Below, piece by piece: positions 13,318 to 32,940 of a DNA stretch of 64,000 nucleotides (position 1 is its first letter; the number at the start of each line of letters is the position of its first letter). Below the pieces are notes generated by a model, which was not told where the DNA came from, did no database searches, and saw only the letters and a list, made by a program, of their open reading frames with translations. Source of the stretch: Microcoleus sp. AS-A8 (GTDB taxonomy: Bacteria; Cyanobacteriota; Cyanobacteriia; Cyanobacteriales; Coleofasciculaceae); NCBI GenBank assembly GCA_039962225.1, contig JAMPKV010000005.1, positions 1 through 64,000 on the forward strand, in the 5' to 3' direction. Both the position numbers and the translations under genes were made by a program.

Positions 13318-14091
13318 TTAAGCAGCAGCGATCGCCTCCTGTCCATGTCTCCGCATCAGCTCCATGAGTTCATCCCGATAGTCGTGAAATGTAGAGTGTC
13401 GCTTCACGGTATGGGTACGATGGGGCAGCTTGATCGAGATTTCCTTCCTCACCGTGCCAGGACGAGTACCTAACGCGTAGATTCGATTCGAGAGGAATAC
13501 TGCTTCCTCTACGTCATGGGTGATCATGAAGATTGTAATATTAGTGCGCTGCCACAGATCCAGCATAAATTGGTGCATCGACTCTTTGGTGTGGATGTCT
13601 AATGCACCGAAAGGTTCGTCCATCAACAGCACTTTGGGTTCCGAGGTGAGCGCACGAGCGATCGCTACTCGTTGCTTCATGCCACCGGATAGCTCTTTCG
13701 GCAAGGATTGGGCAAACTCAGTCAACCCCACCACAGTGAGGTAGTAGCTAGCTTGTTCGCGTCGTTGTTTTTTGGGTACGCCTTGAAGCTTCAATCCAAA
13801 CTCAGCATTTTCTTGTACACTCATCCAAGGATAGAGCGTGTAGTGCTGAAACACCATGCCCCGATCCGGTCCAGGTCCGGTGACACACTGACCATCAATG
13901 CTAACTTCCCCCAAAGTAGGAGTATCAAGTCCGGCAATCTGCCGCAGTAGAGTCGATTTACCCGATCCTGATGCACCCACAGCACAGATAAATTCTCCCT
14001 GTTCAATCGTCATATTAATGTCCTTTAGGACAACTAAAGTTCCATTTTTTGTATCGAAGTGCTTATGTAAATTGGTTATTTGCAGATACAT
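13318..14091 (-). CDS. ABC importer ATP-binding protein (NitT/TauT type), guanidine module
   Basis: The 257-residue ATPase has Walker A GASGSGKST, Q-loop region MVFQHYTLYPW, signature LSGGMKQRVAIARAL and Walker B VLLMDEPFGALD. It belongs to the nitrate/sulfonate/taurine importer class (NrtD, SsuB, TauB). It is the last gene of a three-gene minus-strand unit (binding protein, permease, ATPase) with gaps of 62 and 100 bp. The unit adjoins hypB-hypA-gdmH, the same set as Synechocystis sll1077-sll1082, where the transporter imports guanidine. The substrate is therefore inferred from context, not from the ATPase sequence. Confidence 0.9.
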   Translation of the reverse strand: MYLQITNLHKHFDTKNGTLVVLKDINMTIEQGEFICAVGASGSGKSTLLRQIAGLDTPTLGEVSIDGQCVTGPGPDRGMVFQHYTLYPWMSVQENAEFGLKLQGVPKKQRREQASYYLTVVGLTEFAQSLPKELSGGMKQRVAIARALTSEPKVLLMDEPFGALDIHTKESMHQFMLDLWQRTNITIFMITHDVEEAVFLSNRIYALGTRPGTVRKEISIKLPHRTHTVKRHSTFHDYRDELMELMRRHGQEAIAAA

Positions 14092-14191: not shown

Positions 14192-15037
14192 TTATCGCTT
14201 CTGGTTAGCCCATTTACAAGAAACCCTTAACATGTACTGAAAGAGTAGGTCGAAGGCTAGTCCAATCACCCCAATTACGATTAAACCCACAAAAATTTCA
14301 TCAGTTCTCAAAAATCGACCTGCCACACTAATCCGACGCCCTAAACCTTCCGTTGCTGCAATCAGTTCTGAGACAATCACTAATTGCCAAGCAGCGGCTA
14401 AGTTGATGCGACAAGCATCAATAATTCCCGGCAAGACATGGGGAAAAATCACCTGAAATAAAGTTTGTAGGCGGTTCCCTCCTAACATGTAGGTTGATTC
14501 AATCAGGTCTTTGGGCACGAACTTTACCGTATCCATGACCATCAAAGAGTTGAAGAAAAAGACTCCGATGAAGATGAGGGTAATTTTTGGTTCTTCTCCA
14601 ATACCGAGATACAGGATAAGTAGGGGAATGAAGGCGGGCGCAGGCATATAACGCATCAACCCGAAGATAGGTTCGAGCAAGGCGCGGATACTGGCAAAAC
14701 TGCCCATCAGCACTCCAACGGGGATGGAAAAAAGGGCTGCCAACAGGAATCCAACACCAACCCGCCATAGACTTGCCACAGTATCCTTGAGGAGTTCGCG
14801 AGTACTCCACAGCCGTCCAAACGCTTCCACAACTTTACCCGGTGACGGCAAGAACTTAGGGTCTATGTTGCCAAATGTGGTCACCAACCACCACAGCAGT
14901 AAGGGAACTCCAATGGAGGTAATCACTAATGCCGTGTTCAGGGGTTTGGGGATGTCTTCGGCAATTTGCCAGAAAACAGTGGGTTTTAGTGTTGTCGGTC
15001 GGATCAAGGAGCGAATCGATCCAGGACTTTGGTTCAT
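14192..15037 (-). CDS. ABC importer permease (NitT/TauT type), guanidine module
   Basis: The 281-residue protein has about six membrane helices and the cytoplasmic coupling loop of binding-protein-dependent permeases (ESTYMLGGNRLQTLFQVIFP, then HVLPGIIDACRINLAAAW). It would form a homodimeric channel in the plasma membrane. The first ~30 residues are a cytoplasmic lead. The gene lies between the ATPase and the lipoprotein binding protein and is probably cotranscribed with them. Sequence alone says only that it belongs to the nitrate/sulfonate/taurine class; proximity to gdmH suggests guanidine. Confidence 0.9.
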   Translation of the reverse strand: MNQSPGSIRSLIRPTTLKPTVFWQIAEDIPKPLNTALVITSIGVPLLLWWLVTTFGNIDPKFLPSPGKVVEAFGRLWSTRELLKDTVASLWRVGVGFLLAALFSIPVGVLMGSFASIRALLEPIFGLMRYMPAPAFIPLLILYLGIGEEPKITLIFIGVFFFNSLMVMDTVKFVPKDLIESTYMLGGNRLQTLFQVIFPHVLPGIIDACRINLAAAWQLVIVSELIAATEGLGRRISVAGRFLRTDEIFVGLIVIGVIGLAFDLLFQYMLRVSCKWANQKR

Positions 15038-15099: not shown

Positions 15100-16152
15100 T
15101 TAAGATGATTTATTAAATTTCTTGGCGTATGCCTGGACAAAGCGATCATCCAATAAACGGCTGGTGTTGGGTTGAGTGTTCGTTAGACCAACTTCTGTGA
15201 GAAATTTGCTCATTTCGTGGGCTGCAAAGTGTAAGGAAGTCATGGTATTGCTCGGTTTGAAAGCTTTTAGATTTTCCTCTAATGTGAATAGTTGAGTGCC
15301 GTCAGCATACTCTTGATATTCGTTAACCGTGACACCCGCACGTTTTGCCATCATCTTGTATGATTTGTCCCGATTTGTTTTTAGATAGTCCAACGTGACA
15401 AACCAGGAATCAACGATGGCCTGCACCTGTTCAGGATGTTCGTCCACAAACTTGCGCGTAAATACTAAGTGGTCGGAAATCGCTCCCGGAAAGTTCTTGG
15501 AACTGAAGAGTTCCTTACTCCCGGAACGCCTCAATGCCTGAGTGGTGAATGGGGCAAATACTGCCACTGCATCCACTTGACCTCCCACAAATGCCGCTGC
15601 GGCTTTACCAGTTTCTAGAGGGATAAATTGAATATCTTGTGGCGATAAACCTGCTTTTTTGAGTCCTAACAAGAGTAGAAAGTGATCTACAGTCCCTTCC
15701 TCGGCGGCGACTTTTTTTCCTTTTAAGTCGACAACTGAGTTAATCCCTTCGCGGACAATCACCTTATCATTGCCTGTGGAGTTGTCGTTGACCAACACAA
15801 CCACTTGGTCTGCCCCCCCCGCTACGGAATTAACCGTGTCGCCTAGGGTTTGGCTATTGGAATCGATCTGTCCTGCTGTGAGAGTACTGATCGATTCCAG
15901 ATATCCATCAAACCACTTCAGGTCTACTTGAACGTTATTGGCTTTAAATATCCCTTCGTCTTGAGCCACTTGCCACGGAAACCAACCAGGCCACGCACTG
16001 AAACCCAAACGAACAGAATCAACACTGGCTGAGGAGGCAGAATCGCTTTGATTGGTTGTTTTGATGTATATTGCGGGGTTGACGCAGCCTATAGTAAATG
16101 CCCATGTGACCAGAAAAAGAATAATGTAGGAGAAGAGTGAGCGGATTTTCAT
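15100..16152 (-). CDS. ABC importer substrate-binding lipoprotein (NMT1/SsuA-like), guanidine module
   Basis: The 350-residue protein begins with a lipoprotein signal; Cys follows FTIG, giving a lipobox. The mature protein is a two-lobed binding protein (VRLGFSAWPGWFPWQVAQDE, LTAGQIDSNSQTLGD, AAAFVGGQVDAVAVFAPF). The aromatic and acidic residues in WPGWFPW and in EEGTVD lie where substrate usually binds, which suits a small cation, but I cannot read specificity. It is the first gene of the transporter unit. A perfect GTA-N8-TAC palindrome lies 109 bp upstream, suggesting NtcA control. The homologue in Synechocystis is sll1080 by position. Confidence 0.88.
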   Translation of the reverse strand: MKIRSLFSYIILFLVTWAFTIGCVNPAIYIKTTNQSDSASSASVDSVRLGFSAWPGWFPWQVAQDEGIFKANNVQVDLKWFDGYLESISTLTAGQIDSNSQTLGDTVNSVAGGADQVVVLVNDNSTGNDKVIVREGINSVVDLKGKKVAAEEGTVDHFLLLLGLKKAGLSPQDIQFIPLETGKAAAAFVGGQVDAVAVFAPFTTQALRRSGSKELFSSKNFPGAISDHLVFTRKFVDEHPEQVQAIVDSWFVTLDYLKTNRDKSYKMMAKRAGVTVNEYQEYADGTQLFTLEENLKAFKPSNTMTSLHFAAHEMSKFLTEVGLTNTQPNTSRLLDDRFVQAYAKKFNKSS

Positions 16153-16260: not shown

Positions 16261-16274
16261 GTAACGTATGTTAC
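16261..16274. promoter_or_regulatory. Candidate NtcA-binding site (palindromic GTA-N8-TAC)
   Basis: gtaacgtatgttac fits the NtcA consensus and is a full palindrome. It lies between the divergent transporter unit and the DUF2267 gene, 109 bp from the transporter start. A good TAN3T -10 box at the usual 20-24 bp is not present on either side, which lowers confidence. Confidence 0.5.
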
Positions 16275-16423: not shown

Positions 16424-16969
16424 ATGGCAGATAAAACATACAGGACAAACATTCCAGAAATTGACCCAACTGAGATTGAAGATTCTCGGACTGCGATTGC
16501 CGATGAACATCGCTCATTTCTGGAAAAGGTGATGGTCAGAAGCGGATTTGCCGATCTGTACGACACCAGAGATTTTACCGAAGTTGTGTTTCGCGTCATG
16601 CGCGACTTAATGACCACAGAAACTATCGATCGCGTTGAGGCAGAACTGCATCAAGAAGCGGTGCCGACTGAGGAGAAAGCCCTTCAAATGGAAGTCGCAG
16701 ATCTGTGGAAAGACACCAATCCAATCGTGGGATTTTTGAGTCGCATCCGTAAACCTTTAACAGGGCCGGCTCCGATGGGAATTGATTCCAAGCTATTTCT
16801 CACGCGAGTTGCCAATGAAGCAGGACTGCCAGGAACAATCGAGCGAGAGCAGGCCGTTAAAGCGGTATTTTCTGCCACCAAAGATCAACTGTCCGAGGAG
16901 CGGATTCAGGAAATTGCTGGCTGCCTCCCTGACTATGTGCGTGAGCTTTGGGAGCAGGCTGACGCCTAA
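16424..16969 (+). CDS. DUF2267 family protein
   Basis: The 181-residue protein holds two related helical units of the DUF2267 type: one from about residue 30 (HRSFLEKVMVRSGF ... VFRVMRDLMT) and one from about residue 120 (LFLTRVANEAGLPGTIEREQ ... LPDYVRELW). The family is widespread in bacteria and of unknown function. The gene runs opposite to its neighbours and separates the transporter unit from hypB. It shares its upstream region, including the NtcA-like palindrome, with the transporter unit, so coregulation is possible. I see no link to guanidine in the sequence itself. Confidence 0.85.
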   Translation: MADKTYRTNIPEIDPTEIEDSRTAIADEHRSFLEKVMVRSGFADLYDTRDFTEVVFRVMRDLMTTETIDRVEAELHQEAVPTEEKALQMEVADLWKDTNPIVGFLSRIRKPLTGPAPMGIDSKLFLTRVANEAGLPGTIEREQAVKAVFSATKDQLSEERIQEIAGCLPDYVRELWEQADA

Positions 16970-17075: not shown

Positions 17076-17783
17076 TTAATGGATAACCGATAGGTGCTGC
17101 TCGGGAAGAGACGAGTGTTCGATGTGAGAACAGATCCAATCAAACCAAGCCTCTAATCCTTCACCAGTCTTCGCAGAAACAGGAATAATTGTGACATCAG
17201 GATTCATTTGCCGCACATTGGCGACAATCCGATTTACGTCAGTATCCAGATGAAGGGCTAAGTCCATCTTGGTAATTAGCAAACAATCGGCTTCTTGAAA
17301 CATCACCGGATATTTCAGAGGTTTGTCTTCTCCTTCTGTTAAACTCAGCAGAGCGACTTTGGCGTGTTCGCCCACTTCAAATTCAGCCGGACACACCAAG
17401 TTCCCAACGTTTTCCACGAGTACCAGATCGAAATCAGAAGGGTTGTACTGATGCTCTAGCTGATGGATACCCCCTGCAACCATTTTGGAATCTAAGTGAC
17501 AGGAACGTCCGGTGTTGATGGCAATCACAGGCACCCCATATTGACGAAGGCGATCGGCATCGAGTTCAGTTGTCATATCGCCTTCAATGACAGCAATCTT
17601 TACTTTATTACTGAGGGCGGCTAGTGTCTGTTCTAAGAGAACAGTTTTACCCGCACCGGGACTACTCATGATATTGAAGCAAGTAATGCCCCACTCATCG
17701 AAATGGGCGCGATTGTGGTCGGCTCCTGCCTGATTGGCATGGAGTAAGTTAATTCCTAGAGCGGCGTCAAATGTTTGGTGCAT
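17076..17783 (-). CDS. hypB: Nickel-insertion GTPase HypB
   Basis: The 235-residue protein is a SIMIBI-class GTPase: P-loop SSPGAGKT, switch region [14 protein letters not shown], metal-binding [10 protein letters not shown] (Cys and His), and ITKMDL for guanine recognition. It lacks the N-terminal CxxCGC motif of E. coli HypB and any His-rich nickel store. HypB drives nickel delivery together with HypA. No hydrogenase gene lies in the window. Position next to gdmH and hypA, as in Synechocystis sll1077-sll1079, indicates that it loads nickel into the guanidine hydrolase. The gap to hypA is 104 bp. Confidence 0.93.
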
Positions 17784-17887: not shown

Positions 17888-18280
17888 TTATGAGATATGG
17901 GTATCTTGTCCGCCCGCAACCACTACGTCGGGTTGTGCGTATTGAACGCGCTCGATTTTCAGCTCTCGCCCAGAACGGATGTCTTCCATCGGTGAACTAC
18001 AATCTGGGCAAGCATATTGAATGCCGATTTCGGGGCGATATTCCTGTTGGCAGCGATGACAAAAGGCAATTAATGGAGTTTCCTGAATTACCAGTTTTGC
18101 GCCATCTAAAAAGGTGTTGCGGGTCTGAACTTCAAATGCGAATTGTAAGCTTGCGGGTTCTACACAAGTGAACTGACCTACTGTGAGATAAACATGAGAA
18201 ATTTTGGGGTGTTCCGGTTGTGCTTCCCACCAATCCCGCACGGTTACAATTAGCGCCTTGGTCATGTCAGTCTCGTGCAT
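17888..18280 (-). CDS. hypA: Nickel chaperone HypA
   Basis: The 130-residue protein starts MHETD, so His2 is available for nickel binding as in all HypA proteins. A zinc site of two CxxC pairs follows (FCHRCQQEY and YACPDCSSP). HypA accepts and passes nickel to target enzymes with HypB. Its start codon lies 3 bp after the gdmH stop codon, so translation is probably coupled. This tight coupling supports GdmH as the client. The C-terminus carries a short extra tail (~20 residues). Confidence 0.94.
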   Translation of the reverse strand: MHETDMTKALIVTVRDWWEAQPEHPKISHVYLTVGQFTCVEPASLQFAFEVQTRNTFLDGAKLVIQETPLIAFCHRCQQEYRPEIGIQYACPDCSSPMEDIRSGRELKIERVQYAQPDVVVAGGQDTHIS

Positions 18281-18283
18281 TGT

Positions 18284-19489
18284 TTAAGTCCACGCTACGA
18301 GTTCGGGTTGGGATTCTGGATGAATATAGGCGGGTTTCTCTTTGCGCGGAAGCTGACCGGATAGCACCAAATGCGCCATCGCATCACAGATTACGCGAGT
18401 TGCCATCAGAGAGGTAATATCACTGATGTCGTAGGGTGGGGAAACTTCCACGACTTCCAAACCACAAACAGGAGCCTTTTGCACAATCTTGCCCAGCAGA
18501 TGGAGGGCTTCGCGGGGGAGGAGTCCACCGGGTTCGGGCCAGCCTGTACCAGGGACAAAGCCTGCATCAATGCAGTCAATATCAAAGCTGATGTAGACAC
18601 AATCGGTGCCATCTAATGCCCGTTCGAGGGCAAAATCTACAGCGGCATCCAACCCCATTTCGGTAATATCGGTCACGGTTAAGATATTATGACTTGCCCG
18701 TTCTCGGTAAAATTTGATGCCCTCGCGGGGACATTGCCAGCCGCCAATCCCTAATTGCACTAAGTTCTTGGCTGGGGCGTTCTTCATGTTCGTGGCATGA
18801 AACCAAGGACAGGTGTGCATCCGCTCATCTAGGTCGGTTTCTTGGGTATCGACGTGGCGATCAAAGTGAATGATGCCCACTTTCTTGTCGCCCAAGTGCC
18901 GACAAATGCCCCGAACAGTGGGGAAACCAATGGAATGGTCACCCCCTAGAATAATCGGAAATGCTCCAGAGCTAAAGATGTGAGCAATACCTTTGGAAAT
19001 CTGGTCAAATGACTTTTCGTTGTTGGCGGGAATAGTGAAGATATCGCCCACATCACAGAGTTTGATTTGCTCGCGCAAGTCAATTCCCAACTCAAAATTG
19101 TAGGGCGTATACAAGGCAGAAATGCGGCGAATACCTTGGGGACCAAAGCGAGTACCGGGTCGATAGGTTGTTCCAGAATCGTGAGGAACGCCCACGATCG
19201 CCACATCATACTCCCCAACCTTGCGAACATCCTCTACATACGGTGCTTTCATAAAGGTGTTGATGCCAGCGTAGTGAGGGAGTTCACCGCGTGAGAAAGT
19301 GGGAATGCTGCGATCGCGAATACTTTCTGCCGCTTCTAAACCGTATTCCAGCCCTTTGGATACCTCCTGCTGCCAACCCGTCTTCGGCAGTCGAGCTTCC
19401 AACTCCAGCGCCCGTTGCGCCTGAGTCGGATAATGCCCATTCCCATCTGGACTCTGAAACAGAGGGTTTTCAGAATTATTTTCAGTCAT
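18284..19489 (-). CDS. gdmH: Ni-dependent guanidine hydrolase homologue (GdmH; ureohydrolase family)
   Basis: The 401-residue protein belongs to the arginase/agmatinase fold and would hydrolyse guanidine to urea and ammonia. Metal ligands are visible: H185 in GGDHS, D210, H212 and D214 in FDRHVD, D303 and D305 in SFDIDCID. It differs from ordinary agmatinase (~310 aa) by an N-terminal extension of ~80 residues and by FDRHVD and DAGFVPGTGWPEPGG around the active site, features I associate with Synechocystis Sll1077. The start at 19489 is preceded by an excellent aggag site; a longer frame to 19645 runs into the riboswitch and is not real. hypA follows within 3 bp. Agmatinase activity cannot be excluded from sequence alone. 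Confidence 0.88.
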   Translation of the reverse strand: MTENNSENPLFQSPDGNGHYPTQAQRALELEARLPKTGWQQEVSKGLEYGLEAAESIRDRSIPTFSRGELPHYAGINTFMKAPYVEDVRKVGEYDVAIVGVPHDSGTTYRPGTRFGPQGIRRISALYTPYNFELGIDLREQIKLCDVGDIFTIPANNEKSFDQISKGIAHIFSSGAFPIILGGDHSIGFPTVRGICRHLGDKKVGIIHFDRHVDTQETDLDERMHTCPWFHATNMKNAPAKNLVQLGIGGWQCPREGIKFYRERASHNILTVTDITEMGLDAAVDFALERALDGTDCVYISFDIDCIDAGFVPGTGWPEPGGLLPREALHLLGKIVQKAPVCGLEVVEVSPPYDISDITSLMATRVICDAMAHLVLSGQLPRKEKPAYIHPESQPELVAWT

Positions 19490-19559
19490 TTGCACTCCTG
19501 AGAAGTTTTCAAAACAATTGACGCCAGCGAGTTGGATCGAACCACATTCGGAATCAATA

Positions 19560-19618
19560 CAAAAAGCCCAGGAGAGGACACAATCAGTTTGAGCAACTGA
19601 TGTTTCTCCCGGGCTTTT
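19560..19618 (-). terminator. Riboswitch-controlled terminator (expression platform)
   Basis: On the minus strand AAAAGCCCGGGAGA (19618-19605) can pair with TCTCCTGGGCTTTT, followed by a short U run. The 5' arm is the last conserved strand of the guanidine aptamer, so ligand-bound aptamer and terminator exclude each other. Confidence 0.85.
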
Positions 19619-19735
19619 CTCCCGCCGTGTAACCGACTCATCCAATACACAAGAAAGCAGAGCGCTTAGATCAGCCAGCTTGCTTCTCTCGGACCAGCAT
19701 TTGAATGATGCAAACCGGAACCCTAGAAGCTGTTA
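19604..19735 (-). promoter_or_regulatory. Guanidine-I (ykkC) riboswitch aptamer
   Basis: The minus strand shows the conserved ykkC blocks in order: CTAGGGTTCCGG, then GGTCCGAGAG, then ACACGGCGGGAGAAAAGCCC and GGGAGA. A variable stem lies between the second and third. It sits 115 bp upstream of the gdmH start. Binding of guanidine should protect the last strand and prevent the terminator at 19560-19618, turning the operon on. Confidence 0.92.
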
Positions 19736-20071
19736 ATTTTTCCTTTCGCTCTGTACTTTGAACGACTTCAAAACAGTTTAAGGTTGTCACCCAATTAGGA
19801 ATCCGTCTAGGAAACCTTTAAACTTTACAGAGGATTATCCTGGGTCTTCACTTCTGGAAGAGTAGCAATGAATCCATCGAGAAAATGTAGTGAAAGCTAC
19901 AAAAAAACGGACAGATTCGCCAGTTTTTGTGGAAAATATGAATTTTTCTTGACAAATTCACTCAACTCTCAGGACGGCTAAACTCCACATTCCATTCACT
20001 GCCTAGTTCTGCGAGTAGAGGCAGCCCGGTGTCACACCTCTAGAGTGCCGATCACCCGCTTCAAGCCTGGT
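19736..20071. other. Intergenic region upstream of the guanidine riboswitch
   Basis: It must hold the promoter of the gdmH operon (minus strand), but no consensus box stands out. No gene, tRNA or NtcA box was seen. Confidence 0.4.
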
Positions 20072-27106: not shown

Positions 27107-27176
27107 GTGAGTGTGAGAAGAAAGGAAGAAAAAGCGTTTAGGGTCGAAACACGGAAAGACTCCTGGGCGCTTTTTT
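27107..27176 (+). ncRNA. Small RNA resembling the Yfr2 family
   Basis: A 14-bp perfect stem (27129-27142 with 27162-27175, allowing G-U pairs) is extended by gtc/gac around the open loop gaaacacggaaa. The stem is followed by U6 and so acts as terminator. The loop with paired GAAAC/GGAAA-like motifs is what I remember of the cyanobacterial Yfr2/Cyano-1 RNAs. Family name is from memory; the RNA structure itself is direct. Confidence 0.7.
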
Positions 27177-27731
27177 AGTTGAAATAAATTTTACGGATGA
27201 GAAACAATGACTTAGAGTAACCCGTTAATCTAATCAGTGAGGGTTTTTCTATTAATAACCTACAAAATATCGCTGGTCAGCACTCTACATTTTTCTCAAA
27301 AAGCAAAATGTCAATCCGAAAACTCTTTGTCCGACTACGACTTGAAGTTTTAATTTTGTGGAACAAAATTAAGTTATTGGCGAAATACAGGCAGAAGTTC
27401 TATTGGAAGCTCATCTGGGTACAGCTGCTTAATTTTCCTAGTCGATTGTTAGGTTAGGGAAATTTGCCGTTTTTTGGAGAGTGAATTTGAACGGACTCGC
27501 CAGACTACCAGACTACCTAGGGTATTCCAGCTTGGACGGCTTAGCGACAAACTGTATCGGTGCAGAAAAACGGTGTAGTAATATTAGGGCGCGACGTTCG
27601 CCTACCACCTCACCTCAAGGAAACAAAGATTTATCGGCTATTAATAGAATTTTTTTATCAATTCACCCCTACAAGAGGTCAATGCCTAATTTCTGTGTCT
27701 ATCCTGTAAAAGGTAGACGAACACAGACCCG
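27177..27731. other. Intergenic region upstream of tex
   Basis: An 85-residue open frame at 27481-27738 overlaps the tex start and lacks a ribosome site or domain; it is not called. The tex promoter should lie here. Confidence 0.4.
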
Positions 27732-32869: not shown

Positions 32870-32940
32870 GCGGGCGTAGTTTAGTGGTAAAACCTTAGCC
32901 TTCCAAGCTAATGATGCGAGTTCGATTCTCGCCGCCCGCT
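32870..32940 (+). tRNA. tRNA-Gly (anticodon TCC)
   Basis: A complete cloverleaf can be folded: acceptor stem gcgggcg/cgcccgc, D arm agtttagtggt, anticodon stem ttagc/gctaa around loop cttccaa (anticodon tcc), and T arm with gttcgattc. Discriminator base is T and CCA is not encoded. Confidence 0.95.

Follow-up and report, generated by a model that had tools for sequence, protein, structure and literature searches.

Which signals decide whether the cyanobacterium Microcoleus sp. AS-A8 expresses its guanidine hydrolase gene, gdmH? The window, which is the whole 64,000-nucleotide stretch of DNA analysed here, carries gdmH on the minus strand, and the first-pass annotation had placed a guanidine-I riboswitch in its leader at 19735–19560.

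19604–19737, minus strand: guanidine-I riboswitch aptamer (RF00442)
19605–19619, minus strand: terminator 5' arm, within the aptamer and including the 3' strand of helix P3 (fold; conserved overlap)
19561–19575, minus strand: terminator 3' arm, with the T-tract TTTTT at 19565–19561 and then GTATT (fold)

The Rfam Guanidine-I model (RF00442) matches 19737–19604 on the minus strand over model positions 1–107, that is, all 107, scoring 78.1 bits where the gathering score is 63, with an E value of 3.4e-12, and a whole-genome search finds this match as the only one in the 7.75-Mb genome. A search with this model had been proposed as the check on the riboswitch claim, and the significant, full-length match bears the claim out; the coordinates and direction given for the element are also right, with the aptamer proper starting at 19737. 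The three conserved ykkC blocks reported on the minus strand, CTAGGGTTCCG, CTGGTCCGAGAG and ACACGGCGGGAGAAAAGCCCGGGAGA, are all found both in the sequence and in the RF00442 alignment. Since ykkC-like variants sensing ppGpp, PRPP or nucleotides have much of the scaffold in common with the guanidine-I class, the aptamer could in principle belong to one of them and bind a ligand other than guanidine, but the strongly conserved guanidine-I core letters are all retained in the alignment and the gene directly downstream is a guanidine hydrolase gene, as the guanidine-I class expects, making such a variant very improbable. The window element is thus a genuine guanidine-I riboswitch with a terminator platform, of a class, with a gene and by a mechanism that are already known.

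18284–19489, minus strand: gdmH, Ni-dependent guanidine hydrolase of 401 amino acids (PDB 7esr/7oi1; Pfam Arginase)
19495–19499, minus strand: AGGAG ribosome-binding site of gdmH (sequence)
17888–18280, minus strand: hypA-type nickel chaperone gene (GhaA; TIGR00100, above cut-off)
17076–17783, minus strand: hypB-type nickel GTPase gene (GhaB; TIGR00073, above cut-off)

The best PDB match of the GdmH protein is the Synechocystis guanidine hydrolase (7esr/7oi1; E value of 6.7e-230, 766 bits), followed at 587 bits by 9fek, a protein that likewise bears the name putative agmatinase 2; the next type of ureohydrolase reaches 172 bits. By PDB bit scores the solved GdmH structures are thus nearer to this protein than agmatinases and arginases are, which upholds the earlier naming of the gene. 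The start codon at 19489 given by the first-pass annotation is confirmed by AGGAG at 19499–19495 ahead of the ATG and by the N-terminus MTENNSENPLFQSP, which is conserved in the nearest relatives. The longer mechanical open reading frame from TTG 19645 is rejected as the gdmH start, as it would run through the aptamer and the terminator. Downstream lie the HypA- and HypB-type nickel chaperone genes, both above their family cut-offs, and the order of gdmH and the two chaperone genes is that of Synechocystis sll1077–1079, where the importer genes share the operon. Sll1077, the Synechocystis orthologue, degrades guanidine, and its operon is raised in guanidine-producing strains (PMC8390497); the usual partners of sll1077 are hypA, hypB and an SsuA-type ABC importer (PMC8390497, PMC12186494). 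GdmH of the window would convert guanidine to urea and ammonium, and urease would then cleave the urea; urease is encoded in the genome, and therefore the nitrogen of guanidine should be fully usable.

The conserved 3' end of the aptamer, AAAAGCCCGGGAGA, doubles as the 5' arm of the terminator and pairs downstream with TCTCCTGGGCTTTT. The arms GAAAAGCCCGGGAGA (19619–19605) and TCTCCTGGGCTTTTT (19575–19561) form a stem of 14 bp including one internal G·U pair, or 15 bp with a terminal G·U pair, capped by an inner stem ATCAGTT/AACTGAT, with TTTTTGTATT next. The fold has an energy of −31.7 kcal/mol with a z score of −4.9 (to −5.5), and none of 200 shuffled sequences is equally stable; the T-tract is short, with 5 T (19565–19561) followed by GTATT. 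The segment 19619–19605 is shared by aptamer and terminator. It contains CCC, the 3' strand of helix P3 in the aptamer, so the RNA can adopt only one of the two folds at a time, and aptamer and expression platform are mutually exclusive. The claims that the last ykkC block is the 5' arm of a 14-bp terminator and that this terminator excludes the aptamer therefore both stand, the former by the fold and the latter by fold, shuffles and conservation across loci. A generic promoter and terminator scan lists neither the terminator nor any −35/−10 promoter ahead of the aptamer; the terminator is unlisted because the scan rule wants a loop of 3–8 directly on a continuous stem, and the stem here is interrupted.

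Guanidine-I riboswitches are usually transcriptional ON switches that prevent a terminator (PMC12186494). Without guanidine, the 3' end of the aptamer would pair with TCTCCTGGGCTTTT to form the intrinsic terminator, and transcription would therefore halt about 70 nt ahead of gdmH; with guanidine, the 3' end would be kept in helix P3 of the aptamer, the terminator would not form, and GdmH and the nickel chaperones would be made. The leader resembles that of Synechocystis sll1077 in its RF00442 aptamer, downstream gene, hypA/hypB partners and terminator-type ON switch, but the part ahead of the aptamer is longer in the window, and the importer genes of the window lie outside the transcription unit. 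It also shares with the Bacillus subtilis ykkC leader the aptamer class and the overlap of the aptamer 3' end with the terminator, but it controls guanidine degradation and not an SMR exporter.

In a sample of the phylum, RF00442 is present in 93 of 292 genomes, and 62 guanidine-I loci from the taxonomic class to which the window belongs, the window locus included, form the comparative set. Of these 62 loci, 53 have a downstream arm that pairs with the 3' end of the aptamer, and 52 of these 53 hairpins have a joint shuffle p value for energy and T-content of at most 0.015, with 0.06 for the remaining one (G014). Just past the conserved aptamer letters, pairs switch among G-C, A-T, T-A and C-G between loci; such covariation beyond the aptamer columns argues for selection on the hairpin itself, bearing in mind that the pairing program picks the best partners. 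No significant overlapping hairpin is found in nine of the 62 loci, namely the eight loci of family f25, a small-genome family that appears from its genome sizes to be picocyanobacterial, and G123. A terminator-like alternative hairpin in f25 is rejected, being no better than shuffles. In f25 and G123 the start codon lies about 20–35 nt past the aptamer, and these riboswitches probably act at translation. The f25 loci with a gdmH start near the aptamer and no terminator are L072, L074, L077, L079, L080, L081, L082 and L085. Other cyanobacterial guanidine-I riboswitches precede apparent DUF1989-type carboxyguanidine deiminase genes, in most cases with a biotin-dependent carboxylase gene next in line, or an apparent sodium/solute symporter gene (G278_L062, G060_L069, G129_L050, G185_L075, L070, L078 and L071, with the translations judged by eye).

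The riboswitch is not kept everywhere. Five genomes of the same family (G293, G304, G305, G306 and G309) have gdmH at 84–91% identity and no riboswitch over threshold, suggesting that some lineages can do without the switch; in two of them, G306 and G309 (L171 and L172), gdmH is about 91% identical and there is no Rfam match to the aptamer. In relatives that lack guanidine-I, searches ahead of gdmH find no guanidine riboswitch of another class. In related genera (g117), loci L176 and L179 bear eroded guanidine-I remnants upstream of intact gdmH (for L176, the letters GCTTCCAGGGTTCCGATTCAAG ... GACTGGTCTAAGA), and so the switch is apparently being lost there. These eroded copies raise the alternative that the window riboswitch, too, has decayed and was left in place without function; yet the window copy scores above the cut-off, and the copy in L168, of the same genus, keeps aptamer and stem while the loop letters differ, so that decay is hardly credible here and a working riboswitch is the preferred reading. 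A 33-bit match ahead of gdmH in L170 is rejected as a variant aptamer because of the run of N in it. Loss of the terminator, as in the picocyanobacteria, and erosion of the aptamer in other lineages illustrate how the switch changes or disappears.

19887–19900, minus strand: NtcA-type site GTAGCTTTCACTAC; with flanks TGTA-N8-TACA, 19901–19886 (pattern search; enrichment across loci)
19859–19864, minus strand: putative −10 box TACTCT (TAN3T), 22 nt past the NtcA-type site (sequence; spacing peak across loci)

Promoters activated by NtcA have the consensus GTAN8TAC-N20–24-TAN3T. Upstream of the aptamer, 19901–19859 on the minus strand reads TGTAGCTTTCACTACA, followed by the −10-like TACTCT 22 nt past TAC, and this pattern, TGTA-N8-TACA-N22-TACTCT, which the first-pass annotation does not mention, has the NtcA form, with GTAN8TAC at 19900–19887 and TAN3T within 20–24 nt. 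In the 300 nt before the aptamer, GTAN8TAC occurs in 44 of the 62 loci against 2.4 expected from dinucleotide shuffles, and together with a −10 box in 25 of the same loci against 0.29 expected. The next-best palindromic triplet pattern occurs in 19 loci and the median pattern in 3; the spacing of 8 alone is enriched (44 loci, against 2–5 for other spacings), and the distance from TAC to TAN3T across loci peaks at 22 nt. In the distant family f31, GTAN8TAC is present at 3 of 23 guanidine-I loci.

The gene ntcA is present in the genome, which also encodes several other CRP-family proteins, and the latter allow for an alternative in which the leader is driven by a constitutive promoter, GTAN8TAC being incidental or serving another regulator of that family, and the riboswitch is the only control. 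This alternative is unlikely, though less so than a different ligand or decay, since the site fits the NtcA consensus, and the motif, its exact spacing and the −10 distance are all specific and recur outside f25, where GTAN8TAC is found in 44 of 54 loci and 30 of 33 genera. In addition, the eight f25 loci all have a position-matched weaker form, GTAN9AC, 47–51 nt before the aptamer against 0.25 expected, a count that is partly post hoc, as the pattern was first spotted by eye in five of these loci and then counted. The lowering of the Synechocystis sll1077–1082 operon by excess ammonium also fits control by NtcA (PMC10094980).

The reading that we favour, with a probability of roughly 0.88, is that the guanidine-I riboswitch is a transcriptional ON switch for gdmH–hypA–hypB and is read from the putative NtcA-type promoter; for this locus we infer guanidine binding, readthrough and NtcA binding from the DNA. 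NtcA at 19900–19887 would fire the promoter under nitrogen shortage, and the operon would then be under two inputs in series, nitrogen status and guanidine, forming an AND gate for which the comparative evidence gives good support. The window has the motif, spacing and −10 box of a cyanobacterial NtcA-activated promoter, as a putative site in series with a guanidine riboswitch. The NtcA-type site lies 163 nt ahead of the aptamer, against about 45–110 nt in many other loci, and hence a nearer second promoter is possible. NtcA control of the guanidine operon may already be published, and we claim no priority for it.

16424–16969, plus strand: DUF2267 gene between hypB and the importer genes (PF10025, E value of 7.6e-26; same order in L168)
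16261–16274, minus strand: second NtcA-like site GTAACATACGTTAC, ahead of the importer genes (pattern search; kept in L168 and L173)
15100–16152, minus strand: ABC substrate-binding protein gene (SsuA family), guanidine-importer type (TIGR01728; relatives preceded by guanidine-I riboswitches or located in gdmH operons)
14192–15037, minus strand: ABC permease gene (NCBIfam TauC/SsuC-like)
13318–14091, minus strand: ABC ATPase gene (NCBIfam taurine/nitrate-type)

The ABC genes of Synechocystis and many relatives lie after hypB in the same orientation, and those of others are preceded by a separate guanidine-I riboswitch. Here the importer genes come after hypB but are split off by the opposite-strand DUF2267 gene at 16424–16969, and the same-genus genome G292 (L168) has the same order with the intervening gene. 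The DUF2267 gene is arranged tail to tail with hypB and head to head with the importer; it also adjoins hypB in L170, where no importer is found further downstream. The idea that the importer genes have a concealed or weak riboswitch of their own is rejected, with none found at E values up to 5 and a single RF00442 match genome-wide. A perfect GTAN8TAC lies about 120 nt ahead of the importer start, at 16274–16261, but TAN3T is missing at 20–24 nt, where TACACC after 23 nt differs in its last base, and neither L168 nor L173 has a full TAN3T match. Because of this imperfect −10 and because GTAN8TAC is found at 13 places in the window, where 7.2 would be expected, the second NtcA-like site is moderately supported as a candidate.

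These observations lead to a broader proposal, which we regard as somewhat better than even, that cyanobacterial guanidine-I riboswitches lie almost uniformly behind NtcA promoters, forming a conserved AND gate, and that the importer in this genus has been taken off the riboswitch and now responds solely to the nitrogen input, uptake being induced on nitrogen shortage and the enzyme being made only once guanidine arrives. If this is true, uptake tracks nitrogen status alone, whereas degradation tracks nitrogen status and guanidine. The riboswitch itself is textbook, being one further instance of a published architecture, and the points that the locus would add are the conserved NtcA-type promoter and the rewired importer. 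The comparative result indicates that guanidine counts for cyanobacteria as a source of nitrogen, subject to global nitrogen control, and not mainly as a poison, and the locus offers a testable series AND gate with ready-made parts.

Two other RNAs are found in the window, both on the plus strand: a Cyano-1 RNA (RF01701) at 27107–27179, with 52.2 bits against a cut-off of 41, and a tRNA gene (RF00005) at 32870–32940, with 74.5 bits.
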